Part shown: positions 8,897 to 55,983 of the stretch, in pieces | Layout: each line of letters opens with the position of its first letter | How positions within the stretch are numbered: the stretch's first letter is position 1 | Assembly (NCBI RefSeq): GCF_003151135.1 | Contig: NZ_QEQK01000002.1 | Location: 62,001-126,000 of the forward strand | Origin: Abyssibacter profundi | GTDB taxonomy: Bacteria; Pseudomonadota; Gammaproteobacteria; Nevskiales; OUC007 | DNA: 64,000 nucleotides | Reading direction: 5' to 3' | Notes under the pieces: generated by a model | The model's input: only the letters and a program-made list of their open reading frames with translations | Databases searched by the model: none | Told to the model about the DNA's origin: nothing | Position numbers and translations under genes: made by a program

Positions 8897-9040
8897 TCCC
8901 CGCGGGATGCCGGCTAGCATGACGCGCTGGGCCGGGTCGCCTGGATGTCAGCGACGGCGGTCTCCGGAATTGCCGCTGCATCTCCAAATCGCCGGTGAGG
9001 CGTCGGCCTTGCTGGCATACACATTGAAGGAGCCGTGACC

Positions 9041-9649: not shown

Positions 9650-9682
9650 GAATGCGCTAATCGTTCAGCGCTGCCCCCACCA

Positions 9683-10120: not shown

Positions 10121-10248
10121 GCTTGTCTCTCATGCGTGGGCGGGGAAGCGGCGGGCGCCAGCTGGTGGTGCCTGCGTCAGGGATGCATGTTGCCAGTTTG
10201 AGATTGCATGGGCGATCCGATACCTGCGCATGCGGCGGCGGGCGTTGA

Positions 10249-11088
10249 TCAGCCCGATAGGCGCTGGCCGGTTGGGTGGTCGGTCTCGCAGGGGACAATC
10301 GTGACGAATCGCTGATCGACCACCAGCGAGGGCGCGATCCCGAACATCTCGATAAACGTGTGATCTGCATGCGCCAGATCGTAGAAGCCGGCGTCGATGG
10401 CGACCTCCGTCAGGGTGCGATCCGTGCTCCAGCCCTTGATCGCCTTCCAGATGGCGGCCCAGCGCGCGTAATGCTGAATCGTGGTGCCGATCTGCTGTTT
10501 GAACAAAGTCCGGGTACGCGCGGCCGACAGTCCGATCTCGCGCGACAAGGTCTCGACATTCACCTCGTTCAGCGGGGTCTCGTCCAAACGCTGTCGCAGT
10601 GCCTCGATCCGGTCATCCACCCGCTGTGGCGCCGGAATCGTCGCACCCGAAATCACCTCGACCGCCTGGCGTGCCACACCAATCACGGTGTCGGAGGTCA
10701 GCAGTTGTGAAAAAGCCGGCCGCAATACGTCGATGACCTCAGAGAACTGTGAAGCCTCGAAATTAATCCAGTCCCGACCCGCAATTTTCTGTTGTAGACC
10801 CTGATATTCAGGCCATTCGATGGGGAAATAGAACAGGGCAACATGGCTGTCGATCGCGATGACCTTGCGGCGCTCGACCCGTGGGGCGACCAGCGATGCC
10901 CAGGTCTCCATTTCCTCGCCGGCCACATCGATGGTGTAGGGCTTGTTGCAGGCCAGTCTGAGGGTTGCACAAAGCGGTGTGGTGGTTCGCTCCAGCACCA
11001 GCGTCGGCGCCAGCAAGAGCAGCCCGTGACGCCAGTGGTAGATCGTCATGCCCTGCGGGCTTGGATGCGGCAACGAATCTGCGTCCAT
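10249..11088 (-). CDS. AraC family transcriptional regulator
   Basis: A 279-residue regulator. The C-terminal AraC-type double helix-turn-helix spans about 175-265: VNVETLSREIGLSAARTRTL is the first HTH and TLTEVAIDAGFYDLAHADHT the second. The N-terminal half (about 1-150) is an effector or dimerisation domain without a sequence I recognise. The gene is divergent from the M28 lipoprotein gene. The shared gap holds one of two near-identical 20-bp sites that probably bind this protein; the other lies upstream of the lipase/M28 operon. AAGGAG is 12 nt from the ATG at 11088, rather far, so the ATG at 11049 is an alternative start. Confidence 0.88.
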   Translation of the reverse strand: MDADSLPHPSPQGMTIYHWRHGLLLLAPTLVLERTTTPLCATLRLACNKPYTIDVAGEEMETWASLVAPRVERRKVIAIDSHVALFYFPIEWPEYQGLQQKIAGRDWINFEASQFSEVIDVLRPAFSQLLTSDTVIGVARQAVEVISGATIPAPQRVDDRIEALRQRLDETPLNEVNVETLSREIGLSAARTRTLFKQQIGTTIQHYARWAAIWKAIKGWSTDRTLTEVAIDAGFYDLAHADHTFIEMFGIAPSLVVDQRFVTIVPCETDHPTGQRLSG

Positions 11089-11181
11089 TGTGATAAGCGT
11101 CTCCTTGGCGGGCCGATTGGTATCGGTTCTGGATCACATACTGCGGGCTCCAAAGCCTGCGCCGCAAGCCGGATAATCAGC

Positions 11182-11225
11182 GCGCGCGTTTGATACAAGC
11201 CTCAACCGCCAAAGCCCCGGATACT
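11182..11225 (+). promoter_or_regulatory. Putative AraC-activated promoter, copy 1
   Basis: The 20-bp element GCGCGCGTTTGATACAAGCC (11182-11201) differs at one base from the element at 15877-15896. Exactly 18 nt after it is a -10-like hexamer GATACT (11220-11225), and no good -35 hexamer precedes it. The element would overlap the -35 position, the usual placement of an AraC-type class II activator. The promoter points toward the M28 lipoprotein gene at 11354, giving a leader of about 120 nt. The site is also 94 bp upstream of the araC-type gene, so autoregulation is possible. Confidence 0.65.
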
Positions 11226-11353
11226 GGCAATGTGCTCATCGGGCCGTACGCCCGCCGCGGCGATCAGTGTCTGGCGTGTCTCGGCTCTACAAGACCAAAA
11301 AAATTAAAAACAGGGCGCAAAAACCGGCGATCCCGCCTTTCTGAGGAGATACC

Positions 11354-12907
11354 ATGAATAAGCACATCAAGAAGCTGCTGGGTGTGACCCTGGCGAGCCT
11401 GCTGATCCTGTCCGGTTGTGGCGGCGATAGCCCGACCTCAGGTGTCGGCCTGCCTGAGCAGGGGGATGCCTGTGCACGGACGCAGGCACCGGCATCGACC
11501 GGTGTGCCTTCCACACAACGAATCTTCGGGTGGATTGAGGACCTGGTCGGACTGGGCTACCGACGCACCGGCACTGTGGCCGGGTACGCGGCGGCGGCGT
11601 ATGTGAAATGCCAGCTCGAATCCCTGGGTGTTGATGAGGTTTTCTACGAGACGGCGACAACATGGCAGTGGACCGCCGACGAGGCCAGTGTGGAGGTGGA
11701 CGGATCACCCATCGATGCATTCCCCTCGGCGCATTCATTTGTCACGCCGGACGCGCCGTCCAGATTTGCCACGCCGGCGGGTGGTCTGAACGCCGAGCTG
11801 GTCGATGTGGGCCTGGGCACGCCGGTCGAGATCGCGGCTGCGGATTTGCAGGGCAAGATTGCGGTGTTCGATCTGAAGTTCCTGCTGCCGCCGGCCGGGC
11901 TGGCAGCGCTGACCGAGTTTCTCTGGGATCCGGAGGCGAGCATCGCTCAGCCATCGTTGATTACCGGCAATCCCTATATCACCAACTACGACACGGTCCT
12001 GGCCGAAGTCATGGAAGCGGGCGCCGTGGGGTTCATCGGTGTGCTTGCCGACTACTTCAATTCCAATCAGTACTACAACGAGTACTACCGGCGGTTGCAG
12101 GTCACGATTCCCGGCTATTGGGTCGCACCCGGCGAGGGCGCACATCTTCGCCAGCTGATGTCGGAGCAGCCTGGCCTGACGGCATCATTGGTGATGCGCG
12201 GGGAACGCCGGGAGGTCGAGGCGCGCAGCGTGGTCGGCATTCTGCATGGGGCCAGCGATGAGACCATCATGGTTCAGTCTCATCACGATGCGGCCTTCGA
12301 TGGGGCGGTGGAGGATGGCAGCGGTGTGGCCGCAGTCCTCGCACAGGCCCAATACTTTGCTTCGCAGCCAGTGGAGTCGCGGGCCCGCACGCTGATGTTC
12401 GTGACCATGGATAGCCACTTCACCGGTTATCAGGGGCATATGGCCCTGGTGGACAAGTACGTCATCGATCCGGACTCGCCCTATGACATCGTGGCGAATG
12501 TCACGCTGGAACACATTGGCAAGCAGGGTGTGATCGATGCTGATGGCGAGCTGGAGATCCAGGACCAGCACGAAATCCGCGGGGTATTCGAAAACGTCGG
12601 GCCGACACTTAAGACGCAGATTGTTCAATCCGTGGTGGATCATGATCTGAGGCGGTTGGCGGTCCTCAACGGCCAGGCCCTCTGTGCCACGGTGGGCATT
12701 CCGACCGATGCCTCCTTTGTCTGCCTGAACGGCGTGCCCACCGTCAGCCTGATCGCCGGACCCAACTATCTGTACGACATCGCAGATACCCTGGATAAGG
12801 TCGATCAATCGCAGCTGGTGCCGGTGACCGAGGCGTTTATCGAGATTATCGAGGCTATTGACGAGACGCCGCGTGCACTCATTGGTGCGACGCCGTCAGC
12901 TAGCTGA
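11354..12907 (+). CDS. M28-like peptidase lipoprotein with degenerate active site
   Basis: A 517-residue exported protein: signal peptide with lipobox LSGC (Cys at about 22), a PA-type insert (GGLNAELVDVGLG to about 260), then an M28 zinc-peptidase fold. The first ligands are present (SHHDAAFDG, VEDGSGVA). The usual catalytic EE pair appears as HF in TMDSHFTGYQGH, and the last zinc His region reads NYLYDIADTLDKV instead of YHTxxDT. By eye it is therefore likely to be a non-catalytic or altered M28 protein. It is paralogous to the product of 13009-14526, which keeps more ligands. GAGGAGA 4 nt before the ATG fixes the start. It is likely controlled by the AraC site upstream. Confidence 0.82.
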   Translation: MNKHIKKLLGVTLASLLILSGCGGDSPTSGVGLPEQGDACARTQAPASTGVPSTQRIFGWIEDLVGLGYRRTGTVAGYAAAAYVKCQLESLGVDEVFYETATTWQWTADEASVEVDGSPIDAFPSAHSFVTPDAPSRFATPAGGLNAELVDVGLGTPVEIAAADLQGKIAVFDLKFLLPPAGLAALTEFLWDPEASIAQPSLITGNPYITNYDTVLAEVMEAGAVGFIGVLADYFNSNQYYNEYYRRLQVTIPGYWVAPGEGAHLRQLMSEQPGLTASLVMRGERREVEARSVVGILHGASDETIMVQSHHDAAFDGAVEDGSGVAAVLAQAQYFASQPVESRARTLMFVTMDSHFTGYQGHMALVDKYVIDPDSPYDIVANVTLEHIGKQGVIDADGELEIQDQHEIRGVFENVGPTLKTQIVQSVVDHDLRRLAVLNGQALCATVGIPTDASFVCLNGVPTVSLIAGPNYLYDIADTLDKVDQSQLVPVTEAFIEIIEAIDETPRALIGATPSAS

Positions 12908-36904: not shown

Positions 36905-37534
36905 ATGACCCAGCCCATCGACACGCGCCTGCAAGCCCTGCTGCAATCAGAGCCCGCCCTGTGGCGGGGACAGCAGCGTCATGCCGATCACCGGGCTTTT
37001 CAGTCCACGGGATACCGCGCATTGGACGCGGTACTGCCCGGTCAGGGATGGCCTGTGGCCGGGGTGGTCGAGGTGGTGACCCGAACGGATCAGGCGCCGC
37101 CGCTGCGACCCTTTGTGCCGCTGATGGCGCGCTGCACCCAGGCCGGGCAGACCGTGTTGCTGGTGGATCCACCGCCTGCTCTGGTGCCCTTTGCCCCGGC
37201 CTGGCAGCAGGCCGGGGTTGCGTTGTCCACGCTGTTCACGGTCCAGGCCCAGACCCACAAGCAGGCCTGGTGGGTGATGGAAACCGCCTTGCGCGCCACG
37301 GCCTGCGCGCTGGTGCTGCTCTGGCCCTGTGCTCGGGGTGGTCGGCTGGGCGTGGCAACGGTGCGGCGCTGGCAGGTGGCCGCGGCAGCCGGTTCCACGC
37401 TGGGCGTGTTGTTCGTGCCGGAGTCCATGCAGGGTCAGGCCAGCAACGTGCATCTGCGCCTGCGTATGCAAGGGCAACAACTGACCGTGCTGAAAGCCCG
37501 GGGCATGCACGACTGTCCGCAGGTTTCGCTGTGA
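36905..37534 (+). CDS. imuA: Translesion synthesis accessory protein ImuA
   Basis: A 209-residue RecA-like protein of the mutasome. Conserved parts are the N-terminal WRGQQ, the segment STGYRALDAVLPGQGWPVAGVVEV, and RPFVPLMARCTQAGQTVLLV. It works with ImuB and DnaE2 in SOS-induced mutagenesis. Its stop overlaps the imuB GTG (GTGA). It is the first gene after the LexA box, which makes the three-gene operon DNA-damage inducible. Confidence 0.92.
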   Translation: MTQPIDTRLQALLQSEPALWRGQQRHADHRAFQSTGYRALDAVLPGQGWPVAGVVEVVTRTDQAPPLRPFVPLMARCTQAGQTVLLVDPPPALVPFAPAWQQAGVALSTLFTVQAQTHKQAWWVMETALRATACALVLLWPCARGGRLGVATVRRWQVAAAAGSTLGVLFVPESMQGQASNVHLRLRMQGQQLTVLKARGMHDCPQVSL

Positions 37535-39123
37535 GTGCAGGGGCCCAGGTCCAGGTGGACTGGCTGGCCGAGCCGGCCGGCGCGGGCGTGGCCGATGCCC
37601 GGCCATCGACCCCCATCCCGTCGAAGGCCGCCGAAGGGTCGGCGCCCGTCCAGTCATCACCGGCGACATCAGCCGGCAAGCTCTGGCTTTGCCTGCAGTT
37701 TTCCGATCTGCCGCTGGAGGTGCAGCCGGAGTATGACCCGCGGACGCCTCTGGCCGTGACGACGGTCGTGCGGCAGCGGGTGGTCGTGATGGCCGTATCG
37801 CCTGCAGCGCGGGCCTGCGGGGTGGAACCGGGTTTGCACCCGGCGGCGGCACAGGCGATGTGTCCTGAGTTGCGGTTGGAGCGTCGTGATGAGCCGGCCG
37901 AGGCCCGCCGGCTGGATGCGTTGGCGCGCTGGGCCATGCGGTGGTCATCCTGGATTTCGGTGTCCACACCGGATCGCCTGTTGCTGGAGGTTGGCGGCAG
38001 TCGCCGCTTGTTCGGGGGGCTGCAGGCCCTGCAGCAACGGGTGGTCGATGAACTGAGCGGGCAGGGGCATGCGGTGCAAACGGCCATGGCCCGGTCGGCG
38101 CGGGCGGCCGCCTGGTTGGCGCCCTGGGTGTCCGGGGCCGTGGCCGAGGACGAGGACGCCACACGACGTCTGCTGGCCGCGTTGCCGGTGGAGGCGCTAG
38201 GCCTGCCGTCCAAGGGGCAGACACGTCTGCAGCGGGCGGGTTTGCACCATCTGGGACAGCTGATGCGGCTGCCGCGAGATGGTCTGGCACGGCGCTATGG
38301 GGCCGGTGTGCTGCGCGAGCTGGACGAGGCACTGGGTCAGCGGCCCGAGGCCATGCCACGGTTCTCGCCGCCGGAGCGGTTCGTCGCTGAACTGGAACTG
38401 CCCATGCCCGAGTCGGCCACGCCGCGTCTGCGGGCCGCCGCCGAGCATCTCATCGAGCAGCTGGTGCGCTATCTGCGTGGACATGATGCGGCCGTGGATT
38501 GCCTGCGTCTGCGGCTTTTCCACGAGCGACAGCCCGCGAGCCGACTCGACATCGGCCTGGCCATGGCTGGTCGTGACCCGGTGCGAATCGGCCGTGTACT
38601 GGCCGAACACCTGGATCGACTCGGCCTGCCCGAGCCTGTACGCAGCCTGCGCCTGGAGGCGCCGCGCATTGTGTCGCTGGCCGCCGGTACACAGGACTGG
38701 CTGGACAGCCGTGGCGATGATGACTGGCTGGCCACGCTGGAGCTTTGGCAAAGCCGGCTTGGCGCCAAGGCCGTACAGGGTCTGTCTGCCCGGGCCGATT
38801 ACCGCCCCGAGGCGGCCTGGGTCCAGCATCCGCCCGGTGCGGTGAACGCGGCCTGCCCGCCTGTGACGGCACCGCGGCCGATGTGGCTGCTGCGCGAACC
38901 CCAAGCCATGGTCGTGCGTCATCATCAGCCGACATACAACGGCCCGCTGATTCGCGAGTCCGGTCCGGAACGAATCGAGCAGGGCTGGTGGGACACGACC
39001 AGCGACCAGGGCGGTGACATCTGCCGGGACTACTACGTCATGCGTGACCGTTTCGGCGCGCGCCTATGGGTCTTCCAGGATCGACAACGTCTGGGCTGGT
39101 GGCTACACGGCCATTTCGCATGA
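37531..39123 (+). CDS. imuB: Y-family polymerase-like protein ImuB
   Basis: A 530-residue protein. The Y-family fold is recognisable (LWLCLQFSDLPLEV, VTTVVRQRVVVMAVSPAAR, WISVSTPDRLLLEVGGSRRLFGG). The acidic catalytic residues of true Y-family polymerases are not in their usual places, as is known for ImuB, which acts as a scaffold linking the beta clamp, ImuA and DnaE2. A helix-hairpin region and a little-finger-like region follow. Start: the frame is open upstream inside imuA, but GTG 37531 overlaps the imuA stop; the first 50 residues are Pro/Ala-rich before the conserved domain at KLWLCLQF. Confidence 0.91.
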   Translation: MSAGAQVQVDWLAEPAGAGVADARPSTPIPSKAAEGSAPVQSSPATSAGKLWLCLQFSDLPLEVQPEYDPRTPLAVTTVVRQRVVVMAVSPAARACGVEPGLHPAAAQAMCPELRLERRDEPAEARRLDALARWAMRWSSWISVSTPDRLLLEVGGSRRLFGGLQALQQRVVDELSGQGHAVQTAMARSARAAAWLAPWVSGAVAEDEDATRRLLAALPVEALGLPSKGQTRLQRAGLHHLGQLMRLPRDGLARRYGAGVLRELDEALGQRPEAMPRFSPPERFVAELELPMPESATPRLRAAAEHLIEQLVRYLRGHDAAVDCLRLRLFHERQPASRLDIGLAMAGRDPVRIGRVLAEHLDRLGLPEPVRSLRLEAPRIVSLAAGTQDWLDSRGDDDWLATLELWQSRLGAKAVQGLSARADYRPEAAWVQHPPGAVNAACPPVTAPRPMWLLREPQAMVVRHHQPTYNGPLIRESGPERIEQGWWDTTSDQGGDICRDYYVMRDRFGARLWVFQDRQRLGWWLHGHFA

Positions 39124-42100
39124 AGGCCCAGCCGGTGGACTATGCCGAGCTGCACTGCCTGAGCAATTTCACGTTTCTGCGTGGCGCCTCGCATCCACAG
39201 GAGCTGGTCGAGCGGGCGGCGGATCTGGGCTATACGGCGTTGGCGTTGACCGACGAATGCTCGGTGGCCGGCGTGGTGCGGGCACATGAGGCGGCCAGTG
39301 AGCGGGGCCTGCCGCTGATCATCGGTGCCGAGTTCACGACCGTTCAGGAGCATCGCCTGGTGCTGCTGGCCACCGACCGGGCAGGCTATGGACAGCTGTG
39401 CCAACTCATCACGCTGGCGCGAGGCCGCCGTGCCAAGGGTGACTACGCGCTGGAGTTGAACGACCTGCTCACCGAGCCGCTGGATGGATGCCTGCTGCTA
39501 TGGCTGGACGGTGATGAGGCCGACTTGCAGGGACTGGCGCAGCGGTTTGCAGGGCGAACCTGGTTGGTGGCCGAGTTGTTCGCCACGGCGGATCGTGAGC
39601 AGCGTTTGGCAGATTGGCAGGCCCAGGCGCAGCGCTTGGGTCTGCCTGTGGTCGCGGCAGGTGATGTGCATATGCATGCCCGGGGGCGCCGCGCCCTGCA
39701 GGACACCCTGACGGCGATTCGTTTGGGTCGGCCCATTGCCGAACTGGGATATGCCTTGTTTCCCAATGGCGAGCGACATCTGCGCCCGCTGGCCAGCCTG
39801 CAGGCGCTATATCCACCCGAGTGGTTGGCCGAAACGCAGGCCGTTGCCCGGCGCTGCCGGTTTCATCTCACCGAGCTGCGTTATGAGTATCCGCATGAGT
39901 TGATCCCGTCCGGTCATACCCCCAGCTCCTGGCTACGCAGTCTGGTGGAGCAGGGCGCGCGGCGCTTATATCCATCGGGGGTGCCGGGGGCGGTTCAGCA
40001 GCAAATCGATCATGAGCTGGCGTTGATCGCTGAACTGGCATACGAGTTCTTCTTCCTGACGGTGGAAGACATCGTCCGGTGGGCGCGGACGCAGGGCATT
40101 CTGTGCCAGGGGCGGGGATCGGCGGCCAATTCCACGGTGTGCTATTGCCTGGGGATTACAGCGGTGAACCCGGCTGAGCAAAGCCTGTTGTTCGAGCGCT
40201 TCGTCTCCAAGGACCGGGGGGAGCCGCCCGATATCGATGTGGATTTCGAGCATCAGCGGCGCGAGGAGGTCATCCAATACATTTATCGCAAGTATGGGCG
40301 GGACCGGGCAGCGCTGGCTGCCACGGTGATTTCGTACCGGCCGAAGTCAGCGATTCGCGACGTGGGCAAGGCGCTGGGGCTGACGCTGGACCAGGTCGAT
40401 GCCCTGACCAAGACCCTGACCTGGTGGGATAGCAGCGAAGAATTGCCGGCGCGAATTCGCGAGGTGGGGTTGGACCCGGACGCGCCGGTCATCCAGCGCC
40501 TGATCGTGCTGGTCCGCGAGCTGATCCGCTTTCCCCGCCATTTATCTCAGCATGTCGGCGGTTTTGTGATCAGTCAGGGGCCGGTGTCTGCGTTGTGCCC
40601 CATCGAACCGGCGTCCATGGCCGGGCGCAGCGTGATTCAGTGGGACAAGGACGACCTGGAAAGCCTGGGCATGCTTAAGGTCGATGTGCTGGCACTGGGC
40701 ATGCTGACGGCGATTCGCAAATGTTTTGACCTGATCGAGGGTTGGACCGGCGAACGCCTGCAGCTGGCCACGATTCCACGCGACGATTCCGACACCTACG
40801 CCATGATCCAGCGTGCCGACACCATCGGCGTCTTCCAGATCGAATCGCGGGCGCAGATGAGCATGCTGCCCCGGCTCAAACCCGCCAATCTTTATGACCT
40901 GACCATCCAGGTGGCCATCGTCCGACCCGGGCCCATCCAGGGGGATATGGTCCACCCCTACCTGGCGCGGCGCGCCGGTCGCGAGCCTGTGCGCTACCCC
41001 AGTCAGGCCGTGCGCGACGTGCTCAAACGGACCCTGGGCGTCCCCATCTTCCAGGAACAGGTCATGCAGCTGGCCATGGTGGCAGCCGGCTTTACCGCCG
41101 GGGAGGCCGACCAGCTGCGACGGGCCATGGCGGCCTGGAAGCGCAAGGGTGGCTTGGAACCCTTCGAGGTCAAGCTCAAGGCCGGGATGGCCCAGCGAGG
41201 ATACAGCCCCGAGTTTGCCGATCGGATCTACCAGCAGATTCTGGGCTTTGGCGACTACGGGTTCCCAGAATCCCATGCGGCCAGCTTTGCACTGCTGGCC
41301 TATGCATCGTCCTGGCTGAAGTGCCATCACCCGGCCGCCTTTACCGCTGCGCTGCTCAACAGCCTGCCAATGGGGTTTTACGCACCGGCTCAGCTCATCG
41401 GCGATGCGCGTCGACATGGCGTCGAGATCCGGCCTGTGGATGTGTTGTTTTCCGAGGTCGAATCGACGCTGGAATCCGGCCCGCAGGGGGTGCCGGCCAT
41501 TCGTCTGGGCCTACATCGCATCAAGGGGATGGATCTGGCCGTGGCTGCACGCATTGTCCAATGGCGTCGGCAATTGCCAGCCGGCCAGCCTGCGCGCGGC
41601 GCCGAGGCGCTACGGCAGGGTTTGATGCAGATTGCCGGCCTGGGCCGCGAGCAGATGGAAGCCCTGGCGGCGGCCGGGGCGCTGCAAAGCCTGTCCGGCC
41701 ACCGGCATCGGGCCTACTGGGACGCCGCGGGGGTGGAGGCTCCGACACCGCTGCTGGGGCGGCCACAGTTTGCCGAGGGCCAGCCCCTGCTCAGTGCGCC
41801 CACCGAAGGCGAGGATCTGCTGGCCGATTACGCCAGCCTGCGTTTCACACTGGGCCGCCATCCGCTGGCGCTGCTGCGGTCACGGCTGGATGCACATGGG
41901 GCGATCTGCGCCCGCCGTCTGCGCGAGCTGCAAACCGGTCGCCCGGTGTGTGTCAGCGGTCTGGTCACAGGACGTCAACGGCCGGGGACCGCCTCCGGTG
42001 TGATCTTCATGACCCTGGAAGACGAGAGCGGCCTGATCAATCTGGTGATCTGGCCCAAGGTGCTGGAGCAGTATCGCAGCGCCGTGCTCCATGCCCAGTT

Positions 42101-42221
42101 GCCGCTGATTCACGGCCATGTCCAGAACGAGGATCAGGTGGTGCACGTCATCGCCCGGCACCTGGAAGACCGGTCCGACTGGTTGGGCGGGCTGGCCGTT
42201 GCCTCGCGGGATTTTCACTGA
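39120..42221 (+). CDS. dnaE2: Error-prone DNA polymerase DnaE2
   Basis: The 1033-residue C-family polymerase of the mutasome. The N-terminal PHP domain begins YAELHCLSNFTFLRGASHP. The polymerase core has CQGRGSAANSTVCYCLGIT, PPDIDVDFEHQRREEVIQYI (the catalytic Asp pair DID and D) and VRPGPIQGDMVHPYL. The C-terminus has an OB-fold (VSGLVTGRQRPGTA) and ends shorter than DnaE1. The ATG overlaps the imuB stop (ATGA). It performs the mutagenic bypass step after DNA damage. Confidence 0.95.
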   Translation: MKAQPVDYAELHCLSNFTFLRGASHPQELVERAADLGYTALALTDECSVAGVVRAHEAASERGLPLIIGAEFTTVQEHRLVLLATDRAGYGQLCQLITLARGRRAKGDYALELNDLLTEPLDGCLLLWLDGDEADLQGLAQRFAGRTWLVAELFATADREQRLADWQAQAQRLGLPVVAAGDVHMHARGRRALQDTLTAIRLGRPIAELGYALFPNGERHLRPLASLQALYPPEWLAETQAVARRCRFHLTELRYEYPHELIPSGHTPSSWLRSLVEQGARRLYPSGVPGAVQQQIDHELALIAELAYEFFFLTVEDIVRWARTQGILCQGRGSAANSTVCYCLGITAVNPAEQSLLFERFVSKDRGEPPDIDVDFEHQRREEVIQYIYRKYGRDRAALAATVISYRPKSAIRDVGKALGLTLDQVDALTKTLTWWDSSEELPARIREVGLDPDAPVIQRLIVLVRELIRFPRHLSQHVGGFVISQGPVSALCPIEPASMAGRSVIQWDKDDLESLGMLKVDVLALGMLTAIRKCFDLIEGWTGERLQLATIPRDDSDTYAMIQRADTIGVFQIESRAQMSMLPRLKPANLYDLTIQVAIVRPGPIQGDMVHPYLARRAGREPVRYPSQAVRDVLKRTLGVPIFQEQVMQLAMVAAGFTAGEADQLRRAMAAWKRKGGLEPFEVKLKAGMAQRGYSPEFADRIYQQILGFGDYGFPESHAASFALLAYASSWLKCHHPAAFTAALLNSLPMGFYAPAQLIGDARRHGVEIRPVDVLFSEVESTLESGPQGVPAIRLGLHRIKGMDLAVAARIVQWRRQLPAGQPARGAEALRQGLMQIAGLGREQMEALAAAGALQSLSGHRHRAYWDAAGVEAPTPLLGRPQFAEGQPLLSAPTEGEDLLADYASLRFTLGRHPLALLRSRLDAHGAICARRLRELQTGRPVCVSGLVTGRQRPGTASGVIFMTLEDESGLINLVIWPKVLEQYRSAVLHAQLPLIHGHVQNEDQVVHVIARHLEDRSDWLGGLAVASRDFH

Positions 42222-46725: not shown

Positions 46726-46848
46726 GGTGGTCGGGTTTTCCGGGTGGAGACGTGCCGCTATCATACGCGCCGCTCTTTTTGCTCCGGTATGTCCGTGTCG
46801 CATCCCGCCTTTCGAACGATCGCCCTGACCCGGGCGCGAACTTGGGCC

Positions 46849-46870
46849 CCAGCCGCCTAACAGCGGCTGG
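46849..46870 (+). promoter_or_regulatory. Hairpin in the thrS leader
   Basis: CCAGCCGC pairs perfectly with GCGGCTGG around a 6-nt loop (CTAACA), 67 nt before the thrS ATG. E. coli ThrRS represses its own translation through leader stem-loops that mimic tRNA-Thr. This hairpin lies at a similar distance, but its loop does not look like a Thr anticodon loop, so it may instead be an attenuation or stability element. Confidence 0.3.
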
Positions 46871-46937
46871 CCGCGCTCCTGTCTCCCTTTATCTGGCTGG
46901 TTGTCAGCCATCACCCATTCGTTCGAGAGGACACCCC

Positions 46938-48887
46938 ATGAGTATTTCTATTCGCCTGCCTGACGGTTCCGAGCGCCCCTTTGACGCGCCCCCCACCGGC
47001 ACCGATGTCGCCCTGTCGATCGGGGCCGGGCTGGCCAAGGCCGCGTTGGCGATCAAGGTGAATGGCGAGTTACGTGATCTGACCCGCGTCATCGAGCAGG
47101 ATGCCGATGTCGAGATCATCACCGGGAAGTCGCCTGAGGCTTTGGAGTTGCTGCGCCATGACGCCGCCCACGTGATGGCCGAGGCGGTCCAGGAGCTATA
47201 CCCCGATACCCAGGTCACGATTGGGCCTGCCATCGAGAACGGTTTCTACTACGACTTCGCCCGCGATGAGCCCTTCAAGCCGGAAGATCTGGAAAAGATC
47301 GAGGCGAAGATGCGCGAGATCGTCAAGCGTGATGAGCCGATAGCCCGTGAGGTCTGGGACCGCAATGAGGCCATCGAATGGTTCAAGGCGCAGGGCGAGG
47401 CCTACAAGGCCGAGATTATTGCGGACCTGCCGGAAGGCGAGACGATCACGGTGTATCGCCAGGGGCAGTTCGTCGATCTTTGTCGCGGCCCGCATCTGCC
47501 GTCCACCGGCAAGCTGGGCAAGGCGTTCAAGCTGATGAAGCTGGCCGGTGCCTACTGGCGCGGGGATTCGAACAACGCGATGCTGCAGCGCATCTACGGT
47601 ACGGCCTGGACCAATGACAAGGAACTCAAGGCGTATCTGACGCAGCTCGAAGAAGCGGAAAAACGTGACCACCGCCGCCTTGGCAAACAGCTCGATCTGT
47701 TCCACATCCAGGACGAAGCAGTAGGGCAGGTGTTCTGGCACCCCAAGGGCTACACCTTGTTCCGTCAGCTTGAGGCCTATGTGCGCGAGAAGATCGACGC
47801 CCGCAACTATGTTGAGGTCAAGACGCCGCTGCTGATGGATCGCAAGCTCTGGGAAGCCTCTGGTCACTGGGACAAGTACCGCGAGAACATGTTTATCGCG
47901 GAGGTCGACGAAGGCAGCAACGAAACCCGCATGTTGGCGGTTAAGCCGATGAACTGCCCGGGGCACGTCCAGCTGTACGCCAATACGCTGCATAGCTATC
48001 GGGACCTGCCGCTGCGCATGGCTGAGTTCGGCGCCTGTCATCGCTACGAGCCATCCGGCGCGCTGCATGGCTTGATGCGCGTGCGTGGCTTCATCATGGA
48101 TGACGCACATATTTTCTGTACGCCCGAACAGCTGCCTACCGAAGCCGCCGAAGCGGGCAAGCTCATCTTCGAGATGTACCGCGAGCTGGGCTTCGACGAG
48201 GTGGAGGTCAAGCTGGCCACACGCCCCGAGCAGCGGATTGGTTCGGATGCCATCTGGGATCGCGCCGAGAGCGAGCTCAAGCAGGCCTGCGAAATGATGG
48301 GCGTGGACTACGTGGTGGCCGAAGGTGATGGCGCGTTCTACGGCCCGAAGCTGGAATTCACGCTGTACGACGCGATCGGGCGTGGCTGGCAGTGCGGCAC
48401 GGTGCAGGTGGACTTCAACCTGCCGGAACGCTTCGGAATCGAGTACGTCGCCGAAGACGGCAGCCGCCAACGTCCGGCCATGCTGCATCGGGCCATTCTG
48501 GGCTCGCTGGAGCGCTTCATCGGCATTCTAATCGAGCAATACGCCGGTGCATTGCCGCTGTGGCTGGCGCCGGTGCAGGTGGCGGTGACGACCATCGTCT
48601 CCGATGCCGACGACTATGCACGCGAGGTGGTGGCGGCGCTGAAGCAGGCCGGCATTCGCGCCGAGCTGGACATCCGCAACGAAAAAATCAATCGCAAGAT
48701 CCGCGAGCACAGTAACAACAAGGTGCCGGCCATCTTCGTGCTGGGTCGTAACGAGGCCGAGGAGGCGCAGGTGACCATCCGCCGCCTGGGCCAGAAACAG
48801 CAGAAGACACTGGCGCTGGCTGAGGCCATCGAATGGCTGCAGGCGGAGATTCGTGAGCGTCGTCGCCCGCAGTCGGACGCCGCTTGA
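46938..48887 (+). CDS. thrS: Threonyl-tRNA synthetase
   Basis: The 649-residue class II synthetase. Order: N-terminal TGS domain ([15 protein letters not shown]), the editing domain with [11 protein letters not shown] and the later [15 protein letters not shown], then the catalytic core with zinc Cys in MNCPGHV and motif 2 ([21 protein letters not shown]), and the anticodon-binding domain (about 545-640). The ATG at 46938 has GAGAGGA upstream. In most Gammaproteobacteria thrS is followed by infC, rpmI and rplT; here a convergent permease gene follows instead. Confidence 0.97.
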
Positions 48888-48943: not shown

Positions 48944-50701
48944 TTAATGGACATGCGCGCTGTGCTCGCCACGCAAACCCTCCGAGAAAAACCGTCTGGC
49001 CCCGTGATTAAGCATGGCCAGCCCCAGTAGCGTGGTGAGCAGGGCAAGGCAGGACCAGCGAATCCACCCGGCATGCTCATGGGGCAGCGGCGGCGCCTGA
49101 AACCCGCTGCTGCCGCCCAGGGCGACGTTGGTGAGCCACCCCAGCAATACCGCCCCACCCAGCATGCCCACAGCGAATCGGCGTGCCGTGGCCAGGTCAT
49201 GAAGACTGGCCAACAATCCGAAGCTGGCCACGTTGGTGGCCGGTCCGGCCAGCAGAAACGCCAGGCCCGCTCCCGGAGACAGGCCGCCCGCCAGCAGGAC
49301 CGCAACGATGGGTGTCGCGCCGCTGGCGCAGACGTACACCGGCACGCCGATCACCGCGAAGCAAAGCACCTGCAAGGCATCTGGCCAGCCCAGCAGCGGG
49401 GTGTGGGCTAGGACCGGCTCCACGATGGCCGCCAGTAGCAGCCCGACGATGAGCCAAGGGCCTGTGGAGCGCAGCAGCTCATCGAGTTGACCGGTGAACC
49501 GTTGCATGCCTGCCGGCACCTGGGCTGCGGGCTCGGTTGCACAACAGCCCCCGGCCGGGGTGGCGGCCGCATGGACTTCGATCTGGCGGCCAACCCACCA
49601 GCCCACGGCGAGGGCCAGGGCCGCCGCAGCCAGCACGCGGGCAATGGTCATGTCCACACCCAGCAAGGGAATGGACAGCAGCAGCGCATCCAGGCCCAGC
49701 TCGGGCGTGGCCACCAGAAACGCCACACCGGCCGCGCCGGGGACGCCGCGATTGACCAGCGTCCGGTACACGGGCAAGACACCACAACTGCAAACCGGCA
49801 GAGGCAGTCCAAAGATCATGCCCCGCCATGCCTGACGCAGCTGCGGTCCTCGCTGCAACCAGTTGAGTGGGGTGCTGGGCAGCCAGGCGCCCAGCGCAGC
49901 AGCGAGCCCGAAGCCGATGACCAGCGCCGGGGCGCTGATCAGCGCAAGGTCCAGAAACCGGCCCCAGGGCAGGGCGCCGGTTCCATGCGCATCGCCGTCC
50001 TGGTGGAGCAGCGCCACGGCAACGACAACCGCCAGACCCAGGGCATTGCCCAGGCCCTCGTATCGAGGAGAGACATGAGCGTGTGTGTCCACGGCATATC
50101 GATCACCCAGATGCGGCTTGTTGAACACCACATGGAGTATGGATCCGGCAATAAAGGCCTGGAATACCGCCAGCAGCGGGGTGGTGCCGTGCGCCATCAC
50201 TGTGTCGCCGAGGCTGAATCCGAGGACGGTGCCGGCCAGCATGCAGCCTAGCGTCATCCAGGCGACGCGCAGGCCGAAGGTGGGGCGTAGCAGCCACCAG
50301 ATCGCCAGTCCCACGGGGAGTCGATGCAGGATGACGGCAATGGCCAGGCCCGGGCCCGTGTGCGCGGGCTCTGACAGCGCTGCGCCGTCGACCGTCGCGT
50401 GGACAATCAACCCGAAGCCACCGAGCAGCAGGGTGGCCAGGTGGGTTTCGCGCGCAGCGTGGTGGAGCAGCCGTTCGGCAATGCTGGGACCGAAAAAACC
50501 GACAGCCAGCGCGATCCAGGCCAGCAGGCCGCCGTGGTGCACGGCTTCGGGCAGGGCCTCGAGCAGCACGATGCCGCCGATGCTGAGAAAGACGAAGCCG
50601 TCGAGCACGGCGCTGAGTTTGCGCTGGCGGTTCAGCCAGGCATAGGCCAGGGGGCCGAACAGCAGCGCGAGCAGGCTGGCGGCGAGAATGGTCGAGTGCA
50701 T
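48944..50701 (-). CDS. ZIP-like domain fused to PF03773-type metal permease
   Basis: A 585-residue inner-membrane protein. The first half (about 1-240) resembles ZIP metal transporters in layout and in remnants such as LLEALPEAVHHGG and HRLPVGLAIW, ending in a His-rich loop (VDTHAHVS). The second half (about 255-585) is a PF03773/ArsP-type permease with the hallmark LPVCSCGVLPVYRTLVNRG and a repeat CASGATPIVAVLLAGG; these export metal(loid)s in known cases. A central loop has a Cys pair (GGCCATE) and the C-terminus ends EHSAHVH. The product may export copper, zinc or an arsenical. A PCu(A)C chaperone gene lies upstream. Confidence 0.8.
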   Translation of the reverse strand: MHSTILAASLLALLFGPLAYAWLNRQRKLSAVLDGFVFLSIGGIVLLEALPEAVHHGGLLAWIALAVGFFGPSIAERLLHHAARETHLATLLLGGFGLIVHATVDGAALSEPAHTGPGLAIAVILHRLPVGLAIWWLLRPTFGLRVAWMTLGCMLAGTVLGFSLGDTVMAHGTTPLLAVFQAFIAGSILHVVFNKPHLGDRYAVDTHAHVSPRYEGLGNALGLAVVVAVALLHQDGDAHGTGALPWGRFLDLALISAPALVIGFGLAAALGAWLPSTPLNWLQRGPQLRQAWRGMIFGLPLPVCSCGVLPVYRTLVNRGVPGAAGVAFLVATPELGLDALLLSIPLLGVDMTIARVLAAAALALAVGWWVGRQIEVHAAATPAGGCCATEPAAQVPAGMQRFTGQLDELLRSTGPWLIVGLLLAAIVEPVLAHTPLLGWPDALQVLCFAVIGVPVYVCASGATPIVAVLLAGGLSPGAGLAFLLAGPATNVASFGLLASLHDLATARRFAVGMLGGAVLLGWLTNVALGGSSGFQAPPLPHEHAGWIRWSCLALLTTLLGLAMLNHGARRFFSEGLRGEHSAHVH

Positions 50702-50762: not shown

Positions 50763-51212
50763 CTACGGGGCGCTTTGCCTCAGGTCAAAGCGGCTTTCGA
50801 CGGACACCAGTTCACCATCGGCCCCGCGAAATGCCAACGACACGGGGATCTGCCCGTTCGATTGCTCCAGATCACGCGGGAACCGCATCATCAGATGGTC
50901 GCCGCCCGAGGCCAGCGTCAGTGTCTCGCCCGGGGCGATCTTGTAGCCATCGACCATGCGCATCTGCTGGACGCCGTCTTCGAGATACACGCTATGCATT
51001 TCGATCCGGCCGAAATTGGGGCTGGAAACACCCAGCATCCGGAGTTCGCCGTCACCGTTGTTGGTAATGCTGACGTAGCCGGCCGTCATCTTCGCCCCCG
51101 GTGGCAGGGCACGCACCCAGCCATCTTCGACCACGATGGGGTCCTTGGGCTGACCGCAACCGGTCAAGGCAAACACGGCGACCAATATGGCGCCAAGCAG
51201 GCTTCGTTTCAT
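50763..51212 (-). CDS. PCu(A)C periplasmic copper chaperone, lipoprotein
   Basis: A 149-residue lipoprotein (lipobox LTGC, Cys 19) of the DUF461/PCu(A)C family. It has the exact copper motif H-x10-M-x21-H-x-M: H73, M84, H106 and M108. These proteins deliver Cu(I) to the CuA or CuB site of cytochrome oxidase. The ATG at 51212 has GAGGGA upstream; the frame runs further back to 51686 into the ligase gene without support. It precedes the permease by 61 bp on the same strand, suggesting linked copper handling. Confidence 0.93.
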   Translation of the reverse strand: MKRSLLGAILVAVFALTGCGQPKDPIVVEDGWVRALPPGAKMTAGYVSITNNGDGELRMLGVSSPNFGRIEMHSVYLEDGVQQMRMVDGYKIAPGETLTLASGGDHLMMRFPRDLEQSNGQIPVSLAFRGADGELVSVESRFDLRQSAP

Positions 51213-51345
51213 GACTTCCCTCATACGCACAGGTGGACAGGGCCGAGTCTTGTGCAGGGCGAGGCCGCATCCCCAGTATCGCCCGGTCGCTCGGTCTGTA
51301 AGAAGTGGCTCAGCCCGCCGGTGGCGGATGAACACATGTCCTGCA

Positions 51346-52299
51346 TTATGCCGGGGTGTGGCGGGCGAGCAAGTCCAATCCGAGTGCGACCCGGTCTTCG
51401 GCCGTATCGGGGATTGTTTTTTGTTGTTCGATTGCCCTGAGCACGGGCAGCAGACCGCGGCGATTCGCCAGCTGGATGGACAGACCCGGCCGGGCGTTGA
51501 GCTCCAGCACCAACGGGCCGTGATGGCGATCCAGCACCACATCCACTCCCAGATAGCCCAGCCGGGCCAAGTCATAGCAGCGGGCGGCGAGCAACAGGAG
51601 CGTGTCCCAGCCGGGAATGCCAATCCCGGCCAGCGGCGCGCCGGTATCGGGGTGGCTGGAAACCCGAGCGTTCTGACAGACGCCATCCTGGGTGATCCCG
51701 CTGGTCAGCTCGATTCCGGCGCCGACCGCTCCCTGATGGAGATTGGCCTTGCCGTCCGATGACCGTGTCGGCAAGCGCACCATCGAAGCGACCGGCACGC
51801 CCCGGAAAACGATGGTGCGGATATCCGGTACACCCTGAAACGCCACGTTTTCGAAGATCGGGTCGAACTGCACGCAGTACTCGATCATGGCCTGGTCCGG
51901 CATGCCGCCCAGGCTGAACATCCCCGATAGGATGTTGGAGATGTGATGGCCCAGTTCGCTATCCGACATCATGCTGCCGCTGGCCTTGATATAGCCGCGG
52001 GCGCGACGGTCCTTGACCACGAGAATCCCGTTGCCGCCGCTGCCATGGGCTGGCTTGACGACAAAGGAGGTCTTGTCGCCCAGGGTATCGGCCAGCTCGC
52101 GGATGGCGTGCTCGGTTCGCACGACGCCATAGAGCTCCGGCACGGCGATACCGGCCTTCTGTGCCAGTGCCTTGGTCTGCAGCTTGTCATCCACCAGCGG
52201 GTAAAGCCGGCGCGCGTTGTGGCGCATGATGAAATCGGCATTGCGCTGGTTCATCGAGAGGATGCCGGCCTCTCGAAGTATGGTACCGGGCCACCGCAT
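51346..52299 (-). CDS. Alpha-L-glutamate ligase-like ATP-grasp protein
   Basis: A 317-residue ATP-grasp enzyme of the RimK-related group (TIGR02291). The N-terminal NQRNADFIMRHNARRLYPLVDDK is typical. The ATP-binding part is FVVKPAHGSGGNGI, and the Mg-binding end is VLELNARPGLSIQLANR. Family relatives add glutamate to amine or peptide substrates, but this subgroup has no proven substrate. Its ATG overlaps the stop of the transglutaminase-7TM gene by one base (TGATG), so the two are translationally coupled. Together with the retropepsin-like gene they form a conserved cassette. Confidence 0.9.
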   Translation of the reverse strand: MRWPGTILREAGILSMNQRNADFIMRHNARRLYPLVDDKLQTKALAQKAGIAVPELYGVVRTEHAIRELADTLGDKTSFVVKPAHGSGGNGILVVKDRRARGYIKASGSMMSDSELGHHISNILSGMFSLGGMPDQAMIEYCVQFDPIFENVAFQGVPDIRTIVFRGVPVASMVRLPTRSSDGKANLHQGAVGAGIELTSGITQDGVCQNARVSSHPDTGAPLAGIGIPGWDTLLLLAARCYDLARLGYLGVDVVLDRHHGPLVLELNARPGLSIQLANRRGLLPVLRAIEQQKTIPDTAEDRVALGLDLLARHTPA

Positions 52300-53834
52300 C
52301 AGAGCTGTTTACCCGCAATCACGGCACGGAACCGCCAGAACTCGGACAGCCGGTAACCGGTGTAACGCCCCAGAATCAGGCAGCCCCCGAGCAATACCAG
52401 CAGCAGTTCGGGGAACACGAACACGAGATGGGTCAGCGTCGGGTTGCTCATCACCAAGAACCCTGCGGCGGCGACCAGTAAGCTGCCACAGCCCTGCAGC
52501 GTGGCTTCGCCCGCGCCGTGCTCTTCCCAAACCAGCGACATGCGCTCAATGGTCATCGCCAGGATCACCATGGGGAACAGGGCAATCGAGAGGCCCTTCT
52601 CCATGCCGAGCTGATGGCTGATCAGACTGACCAGCAGCATCAGGAAGATGACAATGATCAAGACCGAGGCCAGCCGGGGAACCAGCAGCAGTTTCAATCG
52701 CTCCAGGGCGAATCGCAGACCCAGTCCCAGTGCCACGATGAGCGAGAACAGAATAATGCCCCACAGCAGTTTGGTTTCGCGGAAGGCCAGGGCAATCAGG
52801 ATGGGCATGAAGGTCCCAAACGTCTTCACGCCCACGACGTTGCGTAGCAGCACGACCAGGAATGCACCGAGCGGCACCGTCAGCAAGACCTTGTAAACGT
52901 TCTGGGTTTGCACCGGCAGCGCAAACAACGAGTAATCCAGCAGCAACGAGCCGTGGTTGCGTGCCCGGTCCCGCGCGATGGAGACGATTTCCCGCTGGCT
53001 GCGCGCCACCGAGAACCGCACATCCGGCTGTGCGCCGCCGTCGACCGCGAGTAACGGGTCGTTGCCAACGCGCCAGACCAGGAAGTCGTCCGGCAGTCCG
53101 GTCTTGCCGGTGAGCGGAGACATCGGAATCCAGCGCTGCTCGTTATGGACTTCGATGTACGGCACCAGCGAGGCATCTCGGGTGCCATCGACCAGTGGCA
53201 GGCCCCAGATCACCCGGGCAGGAATTCGGGCACCCGCCAGTACATCCACCAGCCACTGCGCCCAGGCGCCGGGGCTGTTGCTGCCACTGCGTAGGCTGTC
53301 GACAGACGGGTTGCTGCCCTCGCGGTTCATGCGCTCGATGAGCGCGCGGGCGAAGGTCACGATATCTGCGGATTCGGAACGCACTTCCTCTAGCAGCGCG
53401 TTGACGGCCGCCTGGGTGGATTCGCCATAGGCAGGCACCTGCGGGTAGCCCGGGAAGGGGTCGGTATGCGTGGCCGGGCGTGTTTCGGATTCATAGACGG
53501 TGACCCGGTAATAAAGCGCCTGGGTGCCGTTGGCGCGCCGGATGGCCCACAGCGCAGCCCGGTTCAGACCACTGTCTTCCTGGCTCACACCAAATCCGCT
53601 GGAGATGAAATCCTCGTCCAACTGCTCGAAGCCCGGCGGCTGCCCAGGAATGAGCAAGGTGGCTTTCACGGGGCCGCCCCTCGCGCGGAAGGCTGCCCGG
53701 GCTTCGACGGTCCATACCGCCGCTTCCGTGCTGGGTGTTAGGGGCAGGCCCAGGCTGCGGGCCTTATACGCCGTAAGTGACAGCCCGGCGGCGATCAGCA
53801 GCGCGGCGATGATCCAGACAGGCAGGTTTCTCAA
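52299..53834 (-). CDS. Inactive transglutaminase domain fused to 7TM (UUP1 family)
   Basis: A 511-residue protein: one N-terminal helix (about 7-25), a periplasmic region (about 30-310) with a transglutaminase-like fold (SPGAWAQWLVDVLAGARIPA) where the catalytic Cys is replaced by Ala, then about seven transmembrane helices (315-500) with the signature FGTFMPILIALAFRETKL. This architecture (PF14400 plus PF14402) always travels with an ATP-grasp ligase and a retropepsin-like protein. It may bind a peptide in the periplasm and relay it to the cytoplasmic ligase. Function unproven. Confidence 0.9.
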   Translation of the reverse strand: MRNLPVWIIAALLIAAGLSLTAYKARSLGLPLTPSTEAAVWTVEARAAFRARGGPVKATLLIPGQPPGFEQLDEDFISSGFGVSQEDSGLNRAALWAIRRANGTQALYYRVTVYESETRPATHTDPFPGYPQVPAYGESTQAAVNALLEEVRSESADIVTFARALIERMNREGSNPSVDSLRSGSNSPGAWAQWLVDVLAGARIPARVIWGLPLVDGTRDASLVPYIEVHNEQRWIPMSPLTGKTGLPDDFLVWRVGNDPLLAVDGGAQPDVRFSVARSQREIVSIARDRARNHGSLLLDYSLFALPVQTQNVYKVLLTVPLGAFLVVLLRNVVGVKTFGTFMPILIALAFRETKLLWGIILFSLIVALGLGLRFALERLKLLLVPRLASVLIIVIFLMLLVSLISHQLGMEKGLSIALFPMVILAMTIERMSLVWEEHGAGEATLQGCGSLLVAAAGFLVMSNPTLTHLVFVFPELLLVLLGGCLILGRYTGYRLSEFWRFRAVIAGKQL

Positions 53835-53931
53835 GATCGCTGCTCCGGGCAGGCAGCCGCAGAGTCTGCGGCGGGCTTGATGGCTAACATGGGTCCAACT
53901 CCCTTTGAAGGCTGGCCGGCAGAGTCCCCGC

Positions 53932-54441
53932 CTAGCGGCAGGCAGCCTGGGTCATAAAGGTGGCCGCCGGGTCCACAACCGCGACGTCTTCGAGAAAACG
54001 CCGCCCCAGCAGCACGGGATAGATAAAGCTGCCACGATCGGCCAGCGAGAACTGCGTTCTGCGTCGGCGACCGTCAAAACAGAACTCCAGCTCAACCACA
54101 GCGCGACGAGAACTGGGGTCGTCATGGTCCTTGATGCGCACGCTGCGTGTCAGAGGCGCTTCGGTTTCGATACGGTGCACTTCGTCGTCGGCATCTTCCA
54201 GCACCAGCGTAAAACGGACCCAGCGCTCATCATCTTTCTCGAAGCGCTCAATGTCTTCAGCATAAATCGATGAGGTCAGCGCCCCGGTGTCGAGCTTGGC
54301 TGAAACGACGATGTCCCAAGGCAGGACGGTCATTTTCTCGACCCAGCCTGCGATGACCTTGCCGGGCGTGCGGCTGTCCGCGGCCACTGTTTGAGGAGCC
54401 AGCGCCGCCAGTACCAACGCTGTGCTGAGGAACCTTCGCAT
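53932..54441 (-). CDS. Retropepsin-like (ATP-dependent zinc protease family, PF05618) protein, exported
   Basis: A 169-residue protein. A signal peptide (cleavage near TVAAD, about 21) is followed by a single-domain aspartic-protease fold with active-site-like motif AKLDTGALTSSI (D51-T-G-A) and the late flap-like YPVLLGRRFLEDVAVVD. The family name (zinc protease, RimB-like) is historical; the DTGA motif indicates a dimeric retropepsin. It lies 97 bp upstream of the transglutaminase-7TM gene on the same strand. The ATG at 54441 gives the signal peptide; the frame is open to 54501. Confidence 0.88.
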   Translation of the reverse strand: MRRFLSTALVLAALAPQTVAADSRTPGKVIAGWVEKMTVLPWDIVVSAKLDTGALTSSIYAEDIERFEKDDERWVRFTLVLEDADDEVHRIETEAPLTRSVRIKDHDDPSSRRAVVELEFCFDGRRRRTQFSLADRGSFIYPVLLGRRFLEDVAVVDPAATFMTQAACR

Positions 54442-54561
54442 GGCGAGATGCGTCTGTTGAGTGCCTGGCGAGAGTCTATGGAATCGCCAAGCGCTTCGCA
54501 CGATCGGGCGCTAGGGGCGGTGATTCGCCAGCCAGGCATGACCTTGATAGCTTGGAGTCGC

Positions 54562-55983
54562 ATGAACCATTGCAGATCGCATCGTTGGCCAATTCTTGTC
54601 TTGTTGGCAGGGGTTGTTCCTGCGCTGTCCGCCCAGCAGCCCACCGAGCCGCGCGCGGAGGCAGACCGAACAACAGCGCAGCCAAGCGCACAGCCGGATA
54701 CGCAAGACACGCAGGTTAAGGCCCCCGCAGCTGCGGCTGAGGCCGCAGCGGTCCCGGTGACCGCCCCAGAACCCACCCCAGCGCCCCCTGCAGTTCAAGC
54801 GTTCGAGTTGCTTGGGGAGGCTGTGCAGCCGGGGACTTGGCGCCAGCTTGCCTGGTCGGCCAGTTATCACTTCGGCGAGCTGGGTGGTGCCACGCCGGTG
54901 CTGGTCTCCCACGGGGCCGAGCCGGGTCCGGTGTTGTGCCTGACAGGCGCCGTGCATGGGGACGAACTCAACGGCATCGAAATCATTCGTCGTGTGGTGC
55001 ACTCGCTGGACCCCAAAGGGCTGTCCGGAACGGTGATCGGTGTGCCGATTGTCAATCTGGCGGGTTTTCAGCGGAACTCGCGCTATCTGCCAGACCGGCG
55101 TGATCTGAACCGCTACTTCCCCGGTTCGCCAACTGGCAGTCTGGCATCCCGCGTTGCCCATTCGTTTTTTACCCAGATCATCGAACGGTGCGATCGTTTG
55201 GCCGATCTACATACCGGTTCGTTCCACCGCACCAATCTTCCGCAGCTTCGCGCGGATTTGAGTAATCCAGCGGTGGTGGAGCTGAGTCGCGGCTTTGGAG
55301 GCATTGCGGTGCTGCAAACCCAGGGCGCAAAGGGCACGCTGCGTCGCGCTGCGGTCGATGCCGGCATACCGGCCGTGACGCTGGAGGCGGGTGAGCCGTT
55401 GCGATTGCAGCCACAACAGGTGGATCAGGGGGTCCGCGGCATCGAAACCCTGATGCACAAGCTCGGCATGATCAACCGTCAGCGCAACTGGCCGAACCCG
55501 CAGCCGGTGTTTTACGAGTCCTACTGGGTGCGCTCGGACCATGGCGGCATCTTGCTGACCCAGGTGGATGTGGGCGATGTGGTTCGTGAGGGGACGGTGC
55601 TGGGCACGGTGACCGATCCGATTACCAACGTGCGGCATGAGGTGTTGTCTCCGTATCGCGGGCGGATCCTGGGCATGGCGCTTAATCAGGTGGTCATGCC
55701 GGGGTTTGCCGCGTTCAGGGTCGGGATCCAGACCACGGAGGAGGCCGTGCAGGAAGAGGCCGCGACTGCCGCTGACACGCAGCCCGTGCCGGCGCAAGAG
55801 GCCCGCGATGACACCTCCGAAATCGAACGCCCCCCGCCGGAACGCGCCGAGGAGATGCCGCCCCGCATCGAGGGCGATGACGCGCCCGAGGAGGAGTCGG
55901 GCGAGGGGGGTCCTGCGGCGCCGGAGCGCGCAGGCGAAACCGACGACGCGCCGGCTGCTGTGGCCGCACCTCCTGAGCCTTGA
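54562..55983 (+). CDS. Exported M14-type succinylglutamate desuccinylase/aspartoacylase family protein
   Basis: A 473-residue exported zinc hydrolase. It has a signal peptide to about residue 24 (VVPALSAQQ) and a Pro/Ala-rich spacer (25-78). The AstE/AspA-type domain has zinc ligands H132 and E135 (GAVHGDELNG), a third His in LADLHTGSFHR, and the catalytic Glu likely in VTLEAGEPL. An AspA-like beta-domain follows (QVDVGDVVREGTVLG), then an acidic Pro/Glu-rich tail of about 80 residues. It is divergent from the retropepsin gene; homologues commonly accompany this cassette, so it may remove what the ligase adds. GGAG 5 nt before ATG 54562 supports the start. Confidence 0.87.
   Translation: MNHCRSHRWPILVLLAGVVPALSAQQPTEPRAEADRTTAQPSAQPDTQDTQVKAPAAAAEAAAVPVTAPEPTPAPPAVQAFELLGEAVQPGTWRQLAWSASYHFGELGGATPVLVSHGAEPGPVLCLTGAVHGDELNGIEIIRRVVHSLDPKGLSGTVIGVPIVNLAGFQRNSRYLPDRRDLNRYFPGSPTGSLASRVAHSFFTQIIERCDRLADLHTGSFHRTNLPQLRADLSNPAVVELSRGFGGIAVLQTQGAKGTLRRAAVDAGIPAVTLEAGEPLRLQPQQVDQGVRGIETLMHKLGMINRQRNWPNPQPVFYESYWVRSDHGGILLTQVDVGDVVREGTVLGTVTDPITNVRHEVLSPYRGRILGMALNQVVMPGFAAFRVGIQTTEEAVQEEAATAADTQPVPAQEARDDTSEIERPPPERAEEMPPRIEGDDAPEEESGEGGPAAPERAGETDDAPAAVAAPPEP

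Follow-up and report, generated by a model that had tools for sequence, protein, structure and literature searches.

In Pseudomonas aeruginosa, the rlo operon encodes RloA, RloB and RloC and has been described with these three genes only (PMC12239564). RloA of P. aeruginosa cleaves stretches of 8 or 10 Glu but not of 6 or fewer, and a triple rloA mutant does not grow in low-salt medium unless rloB or rloC is deleted; the published phenotypes of the system concern biofilm, the shape of cells, tolerance of beta-lactams and hypo-osmotic survival (PMC12239564). The hypo-osmotic phenotype and the rescue are known from P. aeruginosa only. Since the protease mutant is rescued by loss of rloB or of rloC, RloC and RloB should act upstream, making something that RloA must remove. 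A second module, RimK-RimB (PMC11957791, PMC10092738), also pairs an ATP-grasp ligase with a retropepsin, and its substrate is polyglutamate (PMC11957791). Here we describe a locus of Abyssibacter profundi, at positions 51346-55983 of a 64,000-nt window (assembly GCF_003151135.1, contig NZ_QEQK01000002.1, positions 62,001-126,000, forward strand), in which rlo-type genes stand beside a gene for an AstE/AspA-type M14 zinc hydrolase with a predicted export signal. Three of the four genes are already known as rloABC. What is new is the exported M14 hydrolase as a so far unrecognised partner, and this partnership is well supported by co-occurrence. Some of these neighbourhoods may already appear in the ATP-grasp amidoligase survey of Iyer et al. 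(2009), possibly with an earlier mention of the M14 link.

The original prediction had placed four genes here. All four open reading frames were found, their families were identified by Pfam and NCBIfam profile searches of the proteins, and two of the starts were refined. The features of the locus are as follows.

51346..52299, minus strand: RloC-like ATP-grasp ligase, 317 amino acids (aa) (TIGR02291, PF14397; alignment with the RimK of the same genome)
52299..53834, minus strand: RloB-like membrane protein, 511 aa, TTG start (PF14400 and PF14402)
53932..54441, minus strand: RloA-like retropepsin, 169 aa from ATG 54441, predicted to be exported (PF05618)
54442..54561, no strand: 120-bp spacer that separates rloA from the divergent M14 gene (layout comparison)
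54562..55983, plus strand: AstE/AspA-type M14 zinc hydrolase, 473 aa from ATG 54562, probably exported (PF24827)
54955..54966, plus strand: HGDE motif of the M14 protein, with H132 and E135 (invariance in alignments)
55210..55212, plus strand: H217 of the M14 protein, in a D-x-H-T-G motif (invariance in alignments)

Judged by sequence, the minus-strand genes form an operon of the rlo type: rloA, rloB and rloC are contiguous in that order on one strand, and rloC and rloB have base 52299 in common within a minus-strand TGATG, so that the one-base overlap of ligase and membrane protein genes noticed originally is real. The retropepsin and hydrolase most likely start at ATG 54441 and ATG 54562, respectively; signal-peptide-like N termini then result, and the residue numbers first assigned to the two active sites (D51, H132 and E135) are right. 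Because the M14 gene is divergent across the 120 bp, the operon comprises at most three genes. The divergent rloA-M14 layout is retained in related genomes (loci L203, L204, L205, L206, L208 and L051), and neither a sigma-70-type site nor a shared conserved motif was found in the 120-bp gap.

All three minus-strand gene families are shared with P. aeruginosa, including an exported DTG retropepsin with conserved polyglutamate contacts, an RloB that joins an inactive transglutaminase domain to seven transmembrane (TM) segments, and a cytoplasmic ATP-grasp RloC. In contrast, P. aeruginosa has three RloA paralogues where one RloA was seen in the A. profundi genome, the window locus adds the exported M14 gene, and the RloB and RloA3 scores lie under the NCBIfam cut-offs. 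The RloC-like protein scores 439.5 bits against TIGR02291, an alpha-L-glutamate-ligase-like ATP-grasp family (cut-off 314.2; E=5.8e-132), and also matches PF14397. RloB reaches 445.8 bits against NF052267, below the narrow cut-off of 900, and RloA, which matches PF05618, reaches 152 bits against NF052264 (RloA3), below the cut-off of 210; these two proteins are therefore homologues, and not members, of those narrow named subfamilies.

RloB consists of an N-terminal anchor, a periplasmic transglutaminase domain and a C-terminal part of about seven TM segments (PF14400, PF14402 and hydrophobic segments). The transglutaminase domain had been called catalytically dead, and it is inactive family-wide: among 51 aligned RloB proteins there is no conserved Cys/His/Asp triad and no catalytic Cys. 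None of the solved structures matches RloB by sequence, and a structure prediction from a three-sequence alignment (predicted local distance difference test [pLDDT] score of 34) was not used. RloA carries the active site AKLDTGA with the DTG signature and catalytic D51 (codon 54291-54289), and its solved relatives are 9g59, 9g58 and 2pma. Its residues K49, R99, R113 and R136 align as equivalents of the polyglutamate contacts K46, R92, R114 and R137 of P. aeruginosa RloA, a mapping made by motif spacing and by the reported absence of R92 from RimB (PMC12239564). Indeed, R99 is found in nearly all aligned RloA proteins and not in RimB. By a simple hydropathy rule, which was used for all calls of signal-like N termini, nearly all RloA proteins have such an N terminus, that of the window included, and no RimB has one. 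Export of both RloA and the M14 hydrolase is thus likely. RloA homologues at six other loci (L048, L085, L087, L088, L090 and L093) have lipoprotein-signal-like N termini, with a hydrophobic stretch ending in the residues GC, rather than ordinary signal peptides.

Co-occurrence of the exported hydrolase with RloB

Gene content was compared by Fisher tests in an even sample of 274 genomes from the class Gammaproteobacteria. In this class sample the M14 scores are split by a gap, with an upper group at 376 bits or more and a lower group at 263 bits or less. The upper group, the exported M14s, is present in 16 of the 274 genomes (one truncated copy counted), and all 16 are among the 47 genomes with a canonical RloB (P=4.9e-14); none of the 227 genomes without canonical RloB has an exported M14. 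The dependence of the exported M14 on RloB is near-strict. The 78 genomes that have lower-group M14s only show no association with RloB (P=0.11); the same 78 show a strong association with retropepsins in general (P=4e-23). In 46 genomes of the class sample RloC scores over its curated cut-off, and every one of them has RloB.

Two further samples gave the same picture. Within the order of the window, 14 of 15 genomes with an exported M14 have RloB (P=7e-9), and in the 15th (G408, locus L211) the contig begins within the M14 gene. In one genus in which RloB varies, the exported M14 is present in 9/11 genomes with RloB versus 0/7 without it (P=0.002). A second route began with the hydrolase itself: a genome scan with the exported M14 gave 80 best-matching loci, and RloB was checked in 50 of those genomes. 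It was found in 49, nearly always at another locus; at the single exception (L184), the contig ends inside an rloC gene adjoining the M14 gene.

As RloC and the exported M14 are confined to RloB genomes in the class sample (46/46 and 16/16), the grouping of these genes exceeds chance, and chance neighbours were rejected on these counts together with the order and genus samples. Had the four families been distributed independently, this would have spoken against the originally proposed system; a check across genomes showed no such pattern, and the general idea of a four-part envelope system of ligase, protease and hydrolase is supported by the co-occurrence. Physical linkage is looser. The exported M14 gene lies within about 1.3 kb of rloABC in 10 of the 16 class-sample genomes that have it, and rlo-M14 linkage, where present, takes several layouts.

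The hydrolase and its rim counterpart

The M14 protein has a signal-like N terminus, as do most members of the exported group, followed by a low-complexity linker, a catalytic domain, a C-terminal beta domain and an acidic tail. Its score against PF24827 (140.5 bits; cut-off 25) and intact HxxE...H place it in the AstE/AspA family. H132, E135 and H217, which we take to be the zinc ligands with H217 as the third, do not vary among 15 exported proteins, nor in a set of 12 that mixes exported and leaderless ones, and several Arg and Asn residues around the zinc site are also invariant in both groups. An AlphaFold2 model of residues 76-400 (pLDDT 92; predicted template-modelling score 0.90) best matches the folds of 3cdx, 6twm (EutE/DoeB) and 3na6 (Z 32-34.5). 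Further matches are the cyanophycin dipeptide hydrolase CphZ (8ein; Z 26.6) and many M14 carboxypeptidases at Z of about 16, including the CCP5 deglutamylase at about 15.9. The protein is not a member of the DoeB/EutE ectoine deacetylases (70 bits versus a cut-off of 402.7). With the AstE/AspA enzymes EutE/DoeB (6twm), CphZ (8ein) and aspartoacylase it has the fold and the HxxE...H zinc site in common; unlike them, it has a signal-like N terminus, a long linker, an acidic tail and RloB as a genomic partner. The modelled zinc site and its surrounding Arg and Asn residues are compatible with acidic amide substrates as a class, with none singled out. A scan of viral contigs for the M14 gave no match.

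In the M14 tree, the exported subfamily is separated from a leaderless, rim-linked group (Shimodaira-Hasegawa approximate likelihood ratio test, 100). Twenty-one rim-type M14 loci were picked by hand from the class-sample M14 table. RimK is the immediate neighbour of the lower-group M14 gene in 16 of them, most often as RimB-RimK-M14, and just 1 of the 21 M14 proteins has a signal-like N terminus. A. profundi itself carries both sets, rlo with the exported M14 and rim with a leaderless M14; its rim locus (L043, C1:312000-331000), at 8388-12157, contains RimB, RimK, a diacylglycerol-kinase-like gene, a small gene and the leaderless M14. In two other genomes, rlo and rim loci are joined, with rloABC adjoining rimK (L044 and L050) and, at L050, rimB as well.

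The RimK-RimB module thus resembles the window locus not only in its ligase and retropepsin but in having an M14 of the same family adjoin RimK in many Gammaproteobacteria. It differs in that the protease and M14 are cytoplasmic, RloB is lacking, and RimK has an N-terminal domain that is absent from RloC. Indeed, alignment of RloC with the RimK of its own genome shows the DIR, NLHxG, GVD and ExN motifs kept and no counterpart of the RimK N-terminal domain, and RloC falls outside the RimK family TIGR00768 (55.7 bits versus a cut-off of 143.4). In the RimK structure most polyglutamate contacts are located in that N-terminal domain, so the acceptor of RloC likely differs from that of RimK. The M14 goes unmentioned in the RimB and RimK literature that was searched, and it is possibly also a missing piece of the rim system. 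The same triple of ligase, endopeptidase and M14 hydrolase makes up a cytoplasmic cassette (rim) and, with RloB added, an envelope cassette (rlo), a repetition that suggests one common chemistry.

A candidate envelope cycle and its alternatives

For a specific function, we see an even chance that the window encodes an rlo-type envelope system with the M14 as its fourth member, running a cycle in which a glutamate-type tag is made and trimmed in a mirror image of RimK/RimB. By analogy with RimK, cytoplasmic RloC would use ATP to ligate glutamate or a similar acidic amino acid into a chain on an acceptor. RloB, in the inner membrane, might present, export or dock the product at the envelope with its dead periplasmic transglutaminase domain. 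Exported RloA would cut long acidic chains, and the exported M14 would hydrolyze acidic remnants too short for RloA, yielding free amino acids or the bare acceptor. A second hydrolase would be useful because RloA is inactive on short Glu runs, and activity of the M14 on Glu2-Glu6 is predicted. We infer what RloC joins, what RloB does, what the M14 cuts and the order of the steps from these comparisons; glutamate is a tentative choice of RloC substrate, since RloC lacks the N-terminal region through which RimK contacts it. Should the scheme hold, RloD would be a natural name for the exported M14.

In eukaryotes, tubulin passes through a glutamylation cycle made up of TTLL ligases, which are ATP-grasp enzymes, and CCP deglutamylases, which are M14 enzymes. 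The rlo set similarly pairs an ATP-grasp ligase with an M14 hydrolase, and CCP5 is among the fold matches. However, the relation is distant, no common origin of the two systems is proposed, and equal scores are reached by many other M14 enzymes. Our more tentative proposal, which we rate somewhat below even, is that the exported M14, as an exo-hydrolase and a fourth component of rlo systems, completes an envelope glutamylation-deglutamylation cycle of which RimK-RimB-M14 is the cytoplasmic twin, with a fold pairing like that of TTLL and CCP.

Several observations weigh against the proposed cycle. Only 3 of the 80 best-matching M14 loci adjoin rlo genes, so linkage is optional; adjacency, which the first sample had suggested to be the rule, was dropped as the chief argument, and with 77/80 loci unlinked the case rests on co-occurrence. 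The relation is also one-way, in that 31 of the 47 RloB genomes of the class sample have no exported M14, which makes the M14 dispensable for rlo function. On the RloB tree, genomes with the M14 group together (6 changes versus 13.4 for shuffled labels), a pattern expected of an inherited partner with losses and also of simple common descent, which it partly reflects. Shared ancestry is not corrected for in the co-occurrence P values beyond the control that the order and genus samples give. Finally, the fold spans N-acyl-amino-acid deacylases, isoaspartyl dipeptidases and peptidoglycan carboxypeptidases, and the substrate is therefore unreadable from it.

Some of these points bear on the main rival, which we consider unlikely but worth taking seriously: the M14 would take part in the envelope-stress response that rlo serves while acting on something else, for example a stem peptide of peptidoglycan or an N-acylated amino acid, and the two would be linked by a common need instead of a common chemistry. 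The M14 gene lies away from the rlo genes in most genomes, its fold includes the peptidoglycan-acting Csd4 and MpaA, and rlo mutants show cell-shape and beta-lactam phenotypes. Yet a generic stress hydrolase would be expected in genomes without RloB too, where the class sample has none, and the parallel leaderless M14 accompanies RimK-RimB, whose substrate is polyglutamate (PMC11957791). That the M14 is simply an unrelated divergent neighbour of a known rloABC, associated by shared ancestry, would agree with its separate transcription, its frequent location elsewhere and its clustering on the RloB tree; this account is improbable and largely refuted already, as the M14 and RloB co-occur across families of the class sample as well as inside the order and inside a genus with varying RloB, and linkage is seen in several layouts.

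The original prediction itself offered a peptide-tagging cycle, in which the retropepsin trims peptides, the seven-TM protein senses them, the ligase amino-acylates them and the M14 de-acylates them. All four activities are present and co-occur, but the ligase and protease are in different compartments, RloA requires some 8 or more consecutive Glu and does not act on general peptides, and the published epistasis puts the protease downstream of RloB and RloC. The proposed order of steps is thus unsupported, and we regard the cycle in this form as having little chance of being right. The accompanying statement that such gene sets have no settled biochemical role holds in part; for the rlo genes it no longer does, given their published phenotypes and the polyglutamate cleavage by RloA (PMC12239564).

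Osmotic survival, the shape of cells and tolerance of beta-lactams in Gram-negative bacteria are tied to what RloA cleaves in the cell and to what RloB and RloC make, and a dedicated exported hydrolase that depends on rlo offers a second enzyme for catching the RloA substrate.

Neighbouring genes in the window

A mobile-element origin of the locus was set aside, the GC content being even along the window and the layout being retained in related genomes. On the plus strand, at 36961-42221, overlapping imuB-like and dnaE2-like genes form an ImuB/DnaE2 mutagenesis cassette, which was identified by visual inspection of the translations. The plus-strand thrS gene at 46752-48887 has no infC-rpmI-rplT downstream; the next genes are on the opposite strand. 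Among the minus-strand genes is one at 48944-50701 for a 585-aa membrane protein, whose similarity to the ArsP_1/SO_0444 Cu-Zn efflux permease is confined to the C-terminal part; its N-terminal ~240 aa resemble a ZIP-type membrane half, and the protein may be a fusion. Next to it, within 50763-51686 on the reverse strand, is a gene for a PCuAC copper chaperone.

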